A stretch of DNA of 64,000 bases from Bacillota bacterium. Its GTDB lineage: Bacteria > Bacillota > Sulfobacillia > JAJZIM01. The notes under the pieces were generated by a model that did not search any database, was not told the origin of the DNA, and saw only the letters and a list, made by a program, of their open reading frames with translations. A program made the position numbers and the translations under genes. This document shows positions 22,604-28,415 of the stretch, piece after piece. The stretch spans positions 1 to 64,000 of the forward strand of contig JAJZIM010000011.1 of NCBI GenBank assembly GCA_021810565.1. The letters are read 5' to 3'. Within the stretch, counting starts at the first letter, position 1, and every line of letters begins with the position of its first letter.

Positions 22604-23299
22604 TCAGCGGTGATACAAGACCTGCACCTGCTGCAGACAGCCGGGGCAGGTGAAGACGTGCAGTCCCAGCGGCACGCGGGTGGGCCGATGGCAATGGGGA
22701 CAGATGACCTCCCGGGAACGCCCCGCGAACTGCGTGGCCTTGGACAGGACCAGGGCGACGACCCCCAGGGCCAGCATGGGCACGCCCCAGGAGAGCATCA
22801 CCACGGTGGCGGCCAGGGCGCCACCGGTGGCCAAGAGCACCGCCGCGGCCCACATGAGCCCCCGGGCGGCCACGCGAGCCTGCTCCCGACCGTCCACCGG
22901 CAGGGTGATATGGGCCGCCGGCGCCTCGGCCAACTCCCGCACCATGTCGCGGGTGGAGAAGATCCCCCCCGGCTTGCCGTCGTCCCCCACCACCACCAGG
23001 CGGTGCACCCCTTCCCGGCGCATCCGCCTGGCCGCCTCCTGGGCATCCTCCTCTGGATGGGCGGTGAGCACGGGAGCGTGCATGACCTCGGTGGCCGTGC
23101 GGGGGGGCGCCCCGTGGCGCAGGGCGTGCAGCAGGTCCATGGCGGTCACGATGCCCTGGGCCTTGCCCTGCTCGGCATCCACCACCACCACCGCCCCCAC
23201 CCCGTCGCGCCGAAAGATCTCCGCCACCTCCCGCAAGGGGGTATCAGCCTGACAGGTGCTCAACCGCTCGGTCATCAGCTGGGACACGCGGCTCTTCAT
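22604..23299 (-). CDS. CBS-pair membrane protein with C-terminal zinc ribbon
   Basis: 231 residues in three parts. Residues 1-125 are two CBS motifs (SQLMTERLSTCQADTPL and ATEVMHAPVLTAHPEEDA), which in this family bind adenine nucleotides. Residues about 145-195 contain two hydrophobic helices (AAAVLLATGGALAATVVML, then GVPMLALGVVALVL). The end has a CPHC...CPGC zinc ribbon. It probably reports the energy state at the membrane, but the output is unknown. ATG overlaps the preceding ABM-CBS gene by 4 bases, so the two are coupled and may form one sensor complex. Confidence 0.8.
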   Translation of the reverse strand: MKSRVSQLMTERLSTCQADTPLREVAEIFRRDGVGAVVVVDAEQGKAQGIVTAMDLLHALRHGAPPRTATEVMHAPVLTAHPEEDAQEAARRMRREGVHRLVVVGDDGKPGGIFSTRDMVRELAEAPAAHITLPVDGREQARVAARGLMWAAAVLLATGGALAATVVMLSWGVPMLALGVVALVLSKATQFAGRSREVICPHCHRPTRVPLGLHVFTCPGCLQQVQVLYHR

Positions 23300-23967
23300 C
23301 CCGCCGCACCTCCCTCCGCCAGCGCCTCGGCCAGATCGCCCACGCTGAGGGTCCCCACGGGGCGGTTGCCCTCCTGCGGATCCACCACCAAAAGGTTGGG
23401 AAGGCCCTTGGACAGCATCAGGTCCGCGGCCTCCTCCAGGGAGGCCCGGGCCGACACCGCCACCGGGGCCGGGGTCATCAGGTCGCGGGCCGGGGCCGCC
23501 GCCCGCCCCTCCTCGAAAGCCCAGGTCAGCTCCCGTTCGGTCACGATCCCCCGGCAGCCGGCGGGACCGGCCGGTCCCACGGCCACGGCGTAGGTGTTCT
23601 GGCCCAGCATGATCCGGGCCATCTCCCCCGCCGAGGTCTCCGGCGGGCAGCACACGATGCCGGGATGCATCAGGTCCTGGACCAGCCGGCGCCGCCCGCC
23701 GACCTCCTCCCAGGACTCCCGGGAGAATTCCGTCAGGTGCTGCCGTAGGGTCTCCCCGCCCGGCCCCTTCAGGAAGGCCTCCAGCTCCTCGGGATCGTCC
23801 CAAGCAGTGTGCACCGCCACCCGCTCCGGCGCATCCGCCTCGCGGCAGGTACGCCATTCGCGACAGCCGGTCCGCCGCGCCGTCTCCTCCGCCTGCTGCA
23901 GCGCGGCCAGGGTCTTCTGCCAATCCTCCGCTCCCTTGACCTTTCCCCGCATCACGGCCAGCAACAT
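23296..23967 (-). CDS. ABM-like domain fused to a CBS pair
   Basis: 223 residues. Residues 1 to about 90 look like an antibiotic-biosynthesis-monooxygenase-type ferredoxin-like domain (MLLAVMRGKVKG, ERVAVHTAWDDPEELEAFL). Residues 95-223 are two CBS motifs: VQDLMHPGIVCCPPETSAGE with VTERELTWAFEEG, and ARDLMTPAPVAVSARASLEE with VGTLSVGDLAEAL. ABM-like domains are small dimeric units, some haem- or quinol-acting. Pairing one with CBS suggests a nucleotide-gated sensor or enzyme. ATG at 23967; the ribosome site GGGGGG is modest. The pair of cysteines at IVCCPP is unusual for a CBS motif. Confidence 0.72.
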   Translation of the reverse strand: MLLAVMRGKVKGAEDWQKTLAALQQAEETARRTGCREWRTCREADAPERVAVHTAWDDPEELEAFLKGPGGETLRQHLTEFSRESWEEVGGRRRLVQDLMHPGIVCCPPETSAGEMARIMLGQNTYAVAVGPAGPAGCRGIVTERELTWAFEEGRAAAPARDLMTPAPVAVSARASLEEAADLMLSKGLPNLLVVDPQEGNRPVGTLSVGDLAEALAEGGAAG

Positions 23968-24048
23968 GATCTTTGCCCCCCTTCTCTGATTTGTACCGCC
24001 CGCGGCGGGCACGACCCCTCCCACCCCCCCTCCCGGTTTCTACAGAAT

Positions 24049-24473: not shown

Positions 24474-25139
24474 TCAAGTCCCGTCTTCCTCGCCCTCCTT
24501 CAGGAAGCGCACCAGGTCCGATACCTCGCGGCGGTGACCCCGGGGCGGTGCTCCGGCGGCGTATCCCAGACACACCAGCGCCACCAGGTGCAGCTGCGGC
24601 GCCACTCCCAGCTGCGGCTTGAGGCTGCGCTCGTGGAACAGGGTGAACCACAGGCTGCCCAGGCCCAGGGAGTAGGCGGCCAGGAGCATGTTCTGAATGG
24701 CCGCCGCTGCCGCGTACTTGTGCCCGTCGTCCCGCCCCTCGTTGACCCAGTCGGGGGTGGCCCGGGGGTCGGCGGCCACCGCCACAAACACCGGGACCCG
24801 CTCCAGGAAATCCAGGTGGTAGCTCTCATGCACCGGCGGCGGACGATGGCTCCCGAAACCAACCCCGTCCAGGGGGCGCAGGTCGAAGCGGTGCAGGGCC
24901 GGCAGCTGGAAGCCGCTGACCTCGTACAGGTGGTAGCGCAGGGCCAGCCGGGCGTTCTCCCGGATGGCCTTCTTGCGCGCCGCGTCCTGCATGATCACGA
25001 AGCGCCACGGCTGGCTGTTCCCGGGGGATGGCGCCCAGGTGGCCGCCTCCACCACCGCCAGGAGCTTCTCCTGCTCCACCGGCCGGGGGTCGTAGCGGCG
25101 GCAGCTGCGCCGTCCGCGGATCGCCTCCAACACCTCCAT
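24474..25139 (-). CDS. Nitroreductase family protein (FMN-dependent)
   Basis: 221 residues. The N-terminus VLEAIRGRRSCRRYDPRPV and the segment ATWAPSPGNSQPWRFVI are the FMN-phosphate binding motifs of the family, and AAAAAIQNMLLAAYSLGLG with a later LGYAAG completes the site. Such enzymes reduce nitro groups, flavins or quinones, or act as dehydrogenases; the substrate cannot be read from sequence. ATG at 25139. It lies 14 bp after the receiver-FNT gene and before the DUF6941-like gene, all in the same direction, so one transcript from pyk onward is possible. Confidence 0.88.
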   Translation of the reverse strand: MEVLEAIRGRRSCRRYDPRPVEQEKLLAVVEAATWAPSPGNSQPWRFVIMQDAARKKAIRENARLALRYHLYEVSGFQLPALHRFDLRPLDGVGFGSHRPPPVHESYHLDFLERVPVFVAVAADPRATPDWVNEGRDDGHKYAAAAAIQNMLLAAYSLGLGSLWFTLFHERSLKPQLGVAPQLHLVALVCLGYAAGAPPRGHRREVSDLVRFLKEGEEDGT

Positions 25140-25153
25140 CTACCATGCCCCCC

Positions 25154-26413
25154 TCATACCGTGTCCTCGGTGGAGGCCAGATCGCTCGCGGCCGGTGCCA
25201 GTTCCATCGACTCCCCCGCCTTGAGCACCTGCAGGTACTGCAGCAGGGTGACGAAGACCGTTCCTCCCACGAAATTGCCCAGGGCCACCGGCAGGAAGAA
25301 ATGCGCGAACCAGCTGGCGTAGGAGATGCGGAAGCCCTCGTCCATGGCGAAGAAGATCTCCGAGGAGTTGACCACCACGTGATTAAAGCCGTTGAGATAG
25401 ATCAGAAAGCCCACGCACCAGATCACCATGATCTTGGCCTGGGTGCCCCGGCTGGCGACGATGAGCCAGGTCATCAGGGTTATCAGCCAACCGGCGAACA
25501 CGCCGCTCAAGGCCGTGGAGAAGAAGCCCTGGGAGACCTTGTGCCGGGCCAGGTCAACGACGTAGCGGATCCCCGCGGCGTGGAACACGTCGGTGCCACG
25601 GCTCAACAGGTAGGCGAAGAGCGCCGCTCCCAGCACGTTGCCCAAAAGGGTCAGCCCCCACAGGCGAAACAGCTGCCGAGTACGCCCCCGCCGGGCCAGC
25701 ACCGCCGTGGTAGGGATGAGGAAGTTCTCGGTGAAAAGCTCGCTTTTTCCGATGGACAGGAAGATGAACCCCACGGGGAACACCACGGCGCCGGCCACGG
25801 TGGCCCCCAGCGGCCCCACGGCGGGCAGGAAGGCGGCACTCACCAGGGCCGCTCCCAGAGCGCCGAAGGTGACATTCATCCCCGCTATGAAGCCGGAGCT
25901 CAGCATCTCCAGCCAGGCGCGCTTGAGCCGCCGCTCTCCCACCTTGATGGCGCTCTGGAAGATCTCCGCCGGCTCCGCCCCCATGGGGGCCTCCCGCTCG
26001 GTGGCGATCTCGATGGCCTCCCGCACCTGGGAGAGCACCTCCCCCAGACGACCGGAGGCGGCCAGATGCGGCTGCACCTCGCTGCGGATGAAGCTGCGCA
26101 GGCCCTCCAGGATCTCCTCGCGCTCCAGGACCGGGCCGCCCCGCCGCTCCGCCTCCAGGGCCCGCTTGCCGCCCAAGAGCAGCACCGGGGTGCCTAGCTG
26201 CAGCTCCTCCCGGTAGCGGCGACCCCACTCCTCTCCCGTTCCATCGGGGAGCTGCTCGTCCAAAACCAACAGCTGGAAGTAGGGGTCCCGCCGCAAGAGC
26301 TCTGCCGCCGCCGCCCCGGAATCCGCCACCGTCACCTGGTGCCCGTCGGCCTCCAGGCTGCGGCGCACCAGGTCGGCCAGCTCCCCGGACTCCTCCACCA
26401 ACAGGATCCGCAC
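25154..26413 (-). CDS. Receiver domain fused to a formate/nitrite transporter (FNT, YfdC-like) channel
   Basis: One uninterrupted frame of 419 residues joins two families. Residues 1-110 have the CheY-type receiver fold: RILLVEESGELADLVRRSL, then FQLLVLDEQLPDGTG with a candidate phospho-acceptor D52. The acidic pocket is E7-E8 in place of the usual aspartates, the switch Thr/Ser is glycine (LLLGGK), and no lysine stands at the usual KP position, so phosphorylation may be altered or lost. Residues about 165-400 are an FNT channel with six hydrophobic helices, SELFTENFLIPTTAV and the conserved central histidine in NGFNHVVVNSSE. FNT pentamers carry formate, nitrite or similar small anions. GTG at 26413 follows a G-rich site, 14 bp after pyk. 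The architecture is not one I know. Confidence 0.85.
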   Translation of the reverse strand: MRILLVEESGELADLVRRSLEADGHQVTVADSGAAAAELLRRDPYFQLLVLDEQLPDGTGEEWGRRYREELQLGTPVLLLGGKRALEAERRGGPVLEREEILEGLRSFIRSEVQPHLAASGRLGEVLSQVREAIEIATEREAPMGAEPAEIFQSAIKVGERRLKRAWLEMLSSGFIAGMNVTFGALGAALVSAAFLPAVGPLGATVAGAVVFPVGFIFLSIGKSELFTENFLIPTTAVLARRGRTRQLFRLWGLTLLGNVLGAALFAYLLSRGTDVFHAAGIRYVVDLARHKVSQGFFSTALSGVFAGWLITLMTWLIVASRGTQAKIMVIWCVGFLIYLNGFNHVVVNSSEIFFAMDEGFRISYASWFAHFFLPVALGNFVGGTVFVTLLQYLQVLKAGESMELAPAASDLASTEDTV

Positions 26414-26427
26414 CGCCGTCCCCCCCC

Positions 26428-28188
26428 TCAGCGCACGGTCACCCGTCCCCGATACACCAGGCCGCGCGCCCCATCCAGAGTCACCACCTCTCCATCGGAC
26501 AGCCGCTCGGCGGCGCCGGACGCCCCCACCACCGCCGGCACACCCAGCTCCCGGGCCAAGAGCGCCGTCGGAGAGGTCAGCCCCGCCTCCTCGGCCACCA
26601 CCCCCGCCGCCCGGCGCATGGCCGGCACCAGGGGGGGCAGGCCGACGCCCGCCAGGATCTCCCCCGGCCGCACCAAGGCCGCGTCCTCGGCCCCGCGCAG
26701 CACCCGCACCGGCCCCGTCGCCGCGCCCCAGCCCAGACCCGTGCCCCGCAGCAGCACCTCCCCCACCGTCAGGACCCGGATCAGGTTGGTGGTGCCGGGA
26801 ACCCCCACCGGTGTGCCCGCCGTGAGCACCAGCAGGTCCCCCTCCCGGACGGCGCCCCGGGCCAGGGCGCCCGCCACGGCGTCCTCCAGCACCGCCTCCC
26901 CGGTATCGCCGCCCCGGCCCACCAAGGGCTCCACCCCCCACACCACGGCCAGCCGCCGCGCCACCCCCGGGTCGGGAGTGACGGCCACCACCCGGGCGCG
27001 GGGCCGGTGCTTGGCCACCATGCGGGCGGTGTGTCCAGAATGGGTGGCCGTCAATATGGCCTGGGCCGCCAGGTCCTCCGCCAGACGGCAGGCGGCGCGG
27101 GACACCGCGTCGGTGGTCCGCCCCGGTCCCTCCGAGCCCAGGTCGGGGAGCCGGCCGAAGAGCAGCTCCTCCTCGGTGCGAACGGCGATGCGGGCCATGA
27201 CCCGCACCGCCTCCAGGGGGAAGGCCCCGGTGGCCGTCTCCTCCGACAGCATCACCGCATCGGTGCCGTCCAGGATGGCGTTGGCCACGTCGCTGGCCTC
27301 GGCCCGGGTGGGGCGCGGCGCGGCCACCATGGACTCCAGCATCTGGGTGGCGGTGATCACCGGCTTGCCCGCCCGCCGGCAGCGGTCGATGGCCAGCTTC
27401 TGCACCAGGGGGACCTCCTCGGGGGCCAGTTCCACCCCCAGATCGCCCCTGGCCACCATCAGGCCGTCGGCCGCCCCCAGCACCTCCTCCAGCCGGTCCA
27501 CCCCCCGGCGGCTCTCCAGCTTGGCGATCACGGCGGCCGCGCTGCCGACCGCCTCCAGGGCCGCGCGCACCTCCCAGACGTCGTCGGCCTTGCCCGCGAA
27601 GGAGGCGGCCACCAGATCCGCCTCGCCCCCCAGGCTGGCCAGATCCGCCCGGTCCGCCGGACTCAGAAAGGGCAACCCCAGCTCCGCTCCGGGCACGTTC
27701 AGCTTCTTGTGCTGGACCAGGGTTCCTCCCGCCGTCACCCGGCAGCGCACCTCTCCCGGCAGCACCCGCTCCACCGCCAGGACGATGGCGCCGTCGTCCA
27801 AGAGCAGCGTACGCCCGGGCTCCAGCACCGCCCCCAGACCGGGATGGGACACCCCCGCCCCCCTGCCGTCCGCCAGACGCCCATCCAGGTACAGGGAGAA
27901 GCGCTGCCCCACCTCCAGGCGCACCGCCCCTCCGGGCAGGTCCCCCAGGCGCACCTCGGGGCCGCGGGTGTCCAGCATGACGGCCACCGTTCGACCGGCG
28001 GCCTCGGCCGCCTCCCGCACCGCCCGAACGCGCGCGCGGTGCTCCGAAGGGCTGCCGTGGGACAGGTTCACCCGGGCGACGTCCACGCCGGCCTCGAACA
28101 GCTCGGCCAAACGGCCCGGAGCATCGATGGCCGGCCCCAGGGTGGCCACAATCTTGGTGCGACGCAAGGCCCGCCCCCCCTCCCGCAT
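26428..28188 (-). CDS. pyk: Pyruvate kinase with C-terminal PEP-utiliser swivel domain
   Basis: Glycolytic enzyme that makes pyruvate and ATP from phosphoenolpyruvate and ADP; 586 residues. The barrel shows RRTKIVATLGPA, NLSHGS, MLDTRGPEVRLG, the catalytic lysine region VIAKLES, MVARGDLGVEL and ITATQMLESM. The last 100 residues (GVGLPPLVPAMRRAAGVV, later LARELGVPAVVGASG) are a phosphohistidine-swivel-like domain, as in Bacillus and Geobacillus enzymes, without the swivel histidine (TSPTALLA). The ATG at 28188 overlaps the upstream small gene in TGATG. Confidence 0.95.
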   Translation of the reverse strand: MREGGRALRRTKIVATLGPAIDAPGRLAELFEAGVDVARVNLSHGSPSEHRARVRAVREAAEAAGRTVAVMLDTRGPEVRLGDLPGGAVRLEVGQRFSLYLDGRLADGRGAGVSHPGLGAVLEPGRTLLLDDGAIVLAVERVLPGEVRCRVTAGGTLVQHKKLNVPGAELGLPFLSPADRADLASLGGEADLVAASFAGKADDVWEVRAALEAVGSAAAVIAKLESRRGVDRLEEVLGAADGLMVARGDLGVELAPEEVPLVQKLAIDRCRRAGKPVITATQMLESMVAAPRPTRAEASDVANAILDGTDAVMLSEETATGAFPLEAVRVMARIAVRTEEELLFGRLPDLGSEGPGRTTDAVSRAACRLAEDLAAQAILTATHSGHTARMVAKHRPRARVVAVTPDPGVARRLAVVWGVEPLVGRGGDTGEAVLEDAVAGALARGAVREGDLLVLTAGTPVGVPGTTNLIRVLTVGEVLLRGTGLGWGAATGPVRVLRGAEDAALVRPGEILAGVGLPPLVPAMRRAAGVVAEEAGLTSPTALLARELGVPAVVGASGAAERLSDGEVVTLDGARGLVYRGRVTVR

Positions 28189-28415
28189 CACCGGCGCAGC
28201 GCGTCCATCAGGATCTGGTGCGCCTCCGGCGCCTCCCCCGCCGGCACCAGCACGTCCACCCGTCCTTCGCCGCCCGCTCCCACCGGGCGCCAGGTGGCCA
28301 GGATCCCCTCCCGGCGCAACAGCTCGCAGACCCGCTCCCCGTCCGACTGGTCCTGGGCGATGTGTATCACCAGCCACACGGCGCCGACCCCCTTCTCCCG
28401 CGCGCCCTGCCGCAT
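28188..28415 (-). CDS. Small DUF2007-like protein upstream of pyk
   Basis: 75 residues with a ferredoxin-like alpha/beta pattern: VWLVIHIAQDQSDGERVCEL, then RPVGAGGEGRVDVLVP and EAPEAHQILMDALRR. This matches the short DUF2007-type proteins often found beside accA, pfkA and pyk in Clostridia, sometimes misnamed glutamate decarboxylase. The ATG at 28415 follows GGAGGG by 6 bases. Coupling to pyk suggests a role in glycolytic regulation, but no function is established. Confidence 0.72.
   Translation of the reverse strand: MRQGAREKGVGAVWLVIHIAQDQSDGERVCELLRREGILATWRPVGAGGEGRVDVLVPAGEAPEAHQILMDALRR

Follow-up and report, generated by a model that had tools for sequence, protein, structure and literature searches.

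The window, by which we mean the whole 64,000-nucleotide stretch analysed (positions 1 to 64,000 of contig JAJZIM010000011.1, from a Bacillota bacterium of the class Sulfobacillia), carries on its minus strand a single stop-free frame that runs from 26413 to 25154, starts with GTG and encodes 419 residues followed by a stop codon (25154..26413). Its GTG start lies 14 bp past the stop codon of the upstream pyruvate kinase gene pyk (26428..28377, minus strand) and is preceded by a G-rich, ribosome-binding-like stretch (GGGGGGGGA), and a gene for a nitroreductase-family flavoprotein (24474..25139, minus strand) follows 14 bp downstream. Pfam revealed a Response_reg domain at residues 3-86 of the encoded protein (E 8e-8; 32.9 bits against a cut-off of 30.2) and a Form_Nir_trans domain at residues 150-393 (E 6e-58). 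This fusion of a receiver to a formate/nitrite-type (FNT) channel, referred to as REC-FNT, is encoded by the sole FNT gene detected in its own genome. The adjoining pyruvate kinase (26428-28377) has a C-terminal PEP-utiliser mobile domain, and the Pfam scan further showed that the product of the gene at 23299-24024 (minus strand) unites a CBS pair with a domain resembling antibiotic biosynthesis monooxygenases (ABM), which is an unusual combination.

A second REC-FNT was found on contig JAJZBP010000014.1 (referred to as L022), which belongs to a separately assembled genome from another family of the same order, meaning that the fusion is present in both of the two genomes representing this order. 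The two proteins are ~56% identical in an alignment spanning residues 1 to 419. Their FNT domains (65%) and C-terminal tails (25157..25234, minus strand; 58%) are more alike than their receivers (40%) and the stretches at residues 87-149 (42%), and they share a DLASTEDT(V/L) ending as well as D52 and H345. The original prediction had described one continuous frame joining a receiver to an FNT channel, and had named a frameshift or misjoin between residues 110 and 165 as one way in which it could fail. We looked for such a break and found none, the frame containing neither a stop nor a frame change. Since the same fusion recurs in the independently assembled L022 genome, an assembly artefact or misjoined frame can in practice be dismissed, and the fusion is real.

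Beyond these two members, no match running through the receiver was found in fusion-sensitive searches of ~1,700 genomes. These were drawn from the class (154), the phylum (399), the Acidulodesulfobacteriota (30) and the phyla to which a Thermomicrobiales MAG (G539; 301 genomes), a Mycobacterium (G870; 397) and a Methanonatronarchaeales MAG (G541; 394) belong. A few matches started at residues 80-107, and those extracted carry no receiver. No match covering 80% of the query was obtained among 72,556 plasmids, viral contigs contained no relative of REC-FNT, and PADLOC gave no match. A peptide-pattern scan of 84,980 species genomes, which reaches close relatives only, returned L022 as the only full-length relative. 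When 91 FNT frames and their flanks were scanned with Pfam, a receiver was revealed only in the two REC-FNTs. Several actinobacterial FNTs lie in long open frames, and these showed no extra Pfam domain. Moreover, no published report of a receiver-FNT fusion was found in the literature searched. The expectation that this would not be a common or already described architecture therefore held in everything searched, the domain-architecture scan yielding only the two members. The fusion is thus rare and apparently undescribed, each of its parts being a known domain.

The core of the receiver (residues 3-86; 26156..26407, minus strand) comprises beta1-beta4 and alpha1-alpha3, as delineated by Pfam PF00072, by matches to the PDB receivers CpxR, CtrA and CarR and by an AlphaFold2 model, and PF00072 scored above its curated cut-off in L022 as well (33.4 bits). 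Alignment to these and other solved receivers placed Asp52 (codon 26258..26260, minus strand) at the phospho-acceptor position, as the original prediction had it, and this residue is conserved in L022. The acidic pocket that had been thought altered turned out to be intact, the acidic pair being kept as E7/E8 in the window protein and as E7/D8 in L022. The proposed lack of a Thr/Ser switch and of the KP lysine was confirmed in both members, with Gly81 (window protein) or Asn (L022) at the switch position and no conserved Lys after beta5. The canonical five-residue set (acidic pair, Asp, Thr/Ser and Lys) is incomplete in both members, with two of the five missing. Both families retain the linker, the GK motif and the P56/G58 loop.

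A pseudo-receiver is defined as a receiver without at least one of these five key residues (Bourret et al. 2025, PMC12632262), and REC-FNT shares with such atypical response regulators a receiver-like fold from which one or more of the five are missing. Judged by its sequence, the domain is a pseudo-receiver under this definition, of the sort that keeps its Asp. Because both the Thr/Ser and the Lys are missing, a classical phospho-switch is disfavoured; substitution of either does not necessarily abolish phosphorylation (PMC12632262), and weak phosphorylation is possible. The gating by a signalling kinase or a nucleotide that the original prediction put forward is conceivable. Known pseudo-receivers work via partner binding, multimer state or a ligand (PMC12632262). 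The examples of direct regulation in that paper, from whose main text the words 'transporter' and 'channel' are both absent, comprise a clock protein as well as hybrid kinases and DNA-binding proteins, whereas here the domain is attached to a membrane channel. Redox control via a receiver Cys was also considered and is unsupported, the receiver of the window protein being devoid of Cys.

In the AlphaFold2 model, receiver elements beta1-beta4 and alpha1-alpha3 were obtained at pLDDT ~76-88, followed by a weak alpha4 helix at residues 82-90 and no beta5 strand, an outcome that is provisional given the shallow alignment of two receiver sequences. Mixed receiver and FNT alignments (A3 and A4) were left out of folding because they misplaced short receiver fragments. 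Residues 87-149 (25967..26155, minus strand) were modelled as a degenerate alpha4/beta5 region, a long alpha5-like helix (98-117) and a low-confidence linker (pLDDT < 50 at residues 115-144). As the model is a monomer with a linker below pLDDT 50, it is uninformative on contact between receiver and pore.

The FNT domain (residues 150-393; 25235..25966, minus strand) is the complete channel with a central histidine that had been proposed. PF01226 matched over its full length (196 bits against a cut-off of 34.6; profile positions 1-239 of 240), the domain was modelled confidently by AlphaFold2, and a Foldseek search with the model returned PfFNT, LciA, FocA and HSC at target-normalised TM values of about 0.75-0.93. 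Residue mapping onto FocA (with F212, L226, F227, T228, K292 and H345 as equivalents in the channel) located H345 (codon 25379..25381, minus strand) at His209 of the central constriction, and L226 and T228 at the Omega-loop residues L89 and T91. As tabulated for the FNT subfamilies by Mukherjee et al. (PMC5525234), YfdC-type channels have V/I/M/L at FocA position F202, Val at A212, Gly at N172, Glu at S92, a basic residue at G86 and aromatic residues at L79 and N254; in REC-FNT, these positions hold I338, V348, G308, E229, K223, F216 and F372, respectively. The FocA formate signature (F202, A212, N172, S92, E208 and N254) is correspondingly replaced by I338, V348, G308, E229, N344 and F372. 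These diagnostic residues assign the channel to the YfdC type and not to the formate type. The YfdC-alpha/beta subfamilies, with which REC-FNT shares the central His and the YfdC-type residues, form a large FNT group whose substrate and genetic partner are not established and for which a survey reported no linked metabolic enzyme (Mukherjee et al. 2017, PMC5525234). In the same survey (PMC5525234), the segment ahead of TM1 averages 42-55 residues in YfdC proteins; in REC-FNT, this position is taken by the receiver.

Both termini of FNT channels are cytoplasmic, and binding of PflB to the N-terminal helix of FocA controls translocation (PMC5572259). FocA of E. coli resembles REC-FNT in its FNT fold, its central His and its cytoplasmic N-terminus as a control point. 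However, FocA is controlled by a separate enzyme (PflB/TdcE) and has another pore signature, whereas REC-FNT carries a receiver in cis.

From the position of pyk, the channel had been suggested to be coupled to pyruvate/formate metabolism. We dropped this link as unsupported, since no PFL-like gene was revealed by PF02901 in the own genome (99.4% complete; E. coli control positive), since pyk is absent beside the L022 fusion, where a diverging GGDEF gene takes its place, and since the pore is of the YfdC type. The nitroreductase-family gene, on the other hand, is a conserved partner, being 60% identical to its L022 counterpart and lying 14-15 bp downstream of the fusion in both. Its product is BluB-like but remains below the curated BluB cut-off (94.7 vs 150 bits), and among possible metabolic partners we regard this enzyme as the strongest candidate. 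A kinase gene adjoining REC-FNT was found beside neither copy.

In the FNT tree, the REC-FNTs were split with full support from all other FNTs sampled from their own phylum, from which they also differ in lying on the side of the E. coli YfdC sequences, and they grouped with proteins of the Acidulodesulfobacteriota (support 98/97, and 93/94 in a second tree). Lateral transfer between these two lineages is plausible. This sister channel was found in 23 of the 30 Acidulodesulfobacteriota genomes, and the proteins read (L023-L045; 46-50% identity) likewise carry an N-terminal soluble domain in the same place, in their case a four-helix, di-iron ferritin-like fold instead of a receiver. In eight ferritin-FNT sequences, the candidate metal-ligand positions E23, E53xxH56, E106 and E135xxH138 (L045 numbering) are invariant. 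Some of these proteins also share a C-terminal tail similar to that of REC-FNT, with L045 and L053 ending in EDTL or EDT. The ferritin-FNTs (L045:5638-7005 and its homologs L023-L043, L053 and L054), near inspected copies of which a VIT1-like gene was noticed by eye, are comparable to MbfA (ferritin-like plus VIT1). This fusion, too, is apparently undescribed, as none was found in the papers searched.

HMM and tblastn alignments of REC-FNT to the ferritin-FNTs include part of the linker, reaching as far as about residue 95-104. When the linker was compared with helix 4 of the ferritin-like domain, shuffles gave p 0.002-0.03 for the window protein and nothing for L022, and hhalign gave E 0.056. 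Descent of the linker from this helix was therefore set aside as an unproven hint.

Our preferred reading, to which we assign a probability of roughly one half, is that the cytoplasmic pseudo-receiver regulates the YfdC-type channel in cis and in a non-canonical way, presumably by gating it. The basis for such control is the occurrence of the fusion in two families of one order, with Asp52 and the acidic pair kept and the T and K lost, support for a conserved receiver coming from just two sequences. Linked as it is to the N-terminal helix, the receiver would by analogy with FocA and PflB be well placed to act at the entrance of the channel or to keep a partner at this site. Beyond anatomy and conservation, we infer a YfdC-type anion channel, expected to be a pentamer, with a pseudo-receiver on each cytoplasmic N-terminus, so that five receivers would form a cytoplasmic cap. 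This cap might act on the channel entrance by way of linker and N-terminal helix, or it might hold a partner protein there, and partner binding, oligomer state, a ligand or slow phosphorylation of Asp52 could then alter the anion flow. The classical T/K switch would be unused, and the model predicts a remodelled alpha4-beta5 face.

A clearly less likely reading is that the receiver does not gate at all, and serves as a tether recruiting a soluble partner such as the co-transcribed nitroreductase-family enzyme, or as an assembly aid. The conserved pairing and spacing of the two genes would fit such a role, and the ferritin-like domain in the same place of the sister clade is as compatible with an enzymatic or metal-handling role at the channel as with a sensory one. 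However, no relative of the window nitroreductase was found near the ferritin-FNTs or the Thermomicrobiales channels. About as likely as the tether is that a histidine kinase phosphorylates Asp52 to open or close the channel, which would make this a two-component system with ion flow as its output: retention of Asp52 and of both acidic metal-binding positions in the two members would allow it, as would the tolerance of phosphorylation to T or K substitution reported in PMC12632262. Against it stand the loss of the switch Thr/Ser and of the Lys from both members, an alpha4-beta5 output face that the AlphaFold2 model shows shortened, and the lack of any kinase gene found adjacent to the fusion in either genome. 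That the receiver is a decaying, functionless relic of a gene fusion appears quite improbable, since its lower conservation compared with the channel (40% vs 65%), the lost T and K and the unpredicted beta5 are set against a frame, Asp52, acidic pair, P56/G58 loop, GK motif and linker that have all been kept at 56% overall identity.

Regulation in cis also has to be seen against the other soluble domains on related channels. Haloarchaeal YfdC-type FNTs, of which those placed in the tree fell on its YfdC side, carried a C-terminal Usp domain in all five long-frame proteins examined, and two of them in four of these five. Such two-Usp channels are encoded in single frames at L170:1273-3177, L171:1929-3743, L172:2165-4078 and L176:593-2443, and many haloarchaeal matches sit in comparably long frames of about 600-770 codons. 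With the receiver included, YfdC-type channels thus carry soluble domains of at least four kinds, which makes a chance fusion less likely than a role in regulation or partner binding on the cytoplasmic side. More broadly, and tentatively, YfdC-type FNTs may form a chassis that is repeatedly fitted with cytoplasmic signal, stress or redox domains, with the receiver directly controlling the channel in cis in this particular order. The receiver, ferritin-like, Usp and DsbA-like domains offer handles on the control and purpose of YfdC-type FNTs, and in REC-FNT the question of control can be addressed within one protein. If correct, cis regulation would widen the range of outputs joined directly to receiver-like domains to include a membrane channel, the signalling output then being exerted on ion flow and not on DNA, enzymes or motors. 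The DsbA-like thioredoxin domain was observed at the N-terminus of FNTs encoded by plasmid genes of Halostagnicola larsenii (L184:1344-2867) and Natrinema zhouii (L185:1554-3065), both of which are annotated merely as formate/nitrite transporter.
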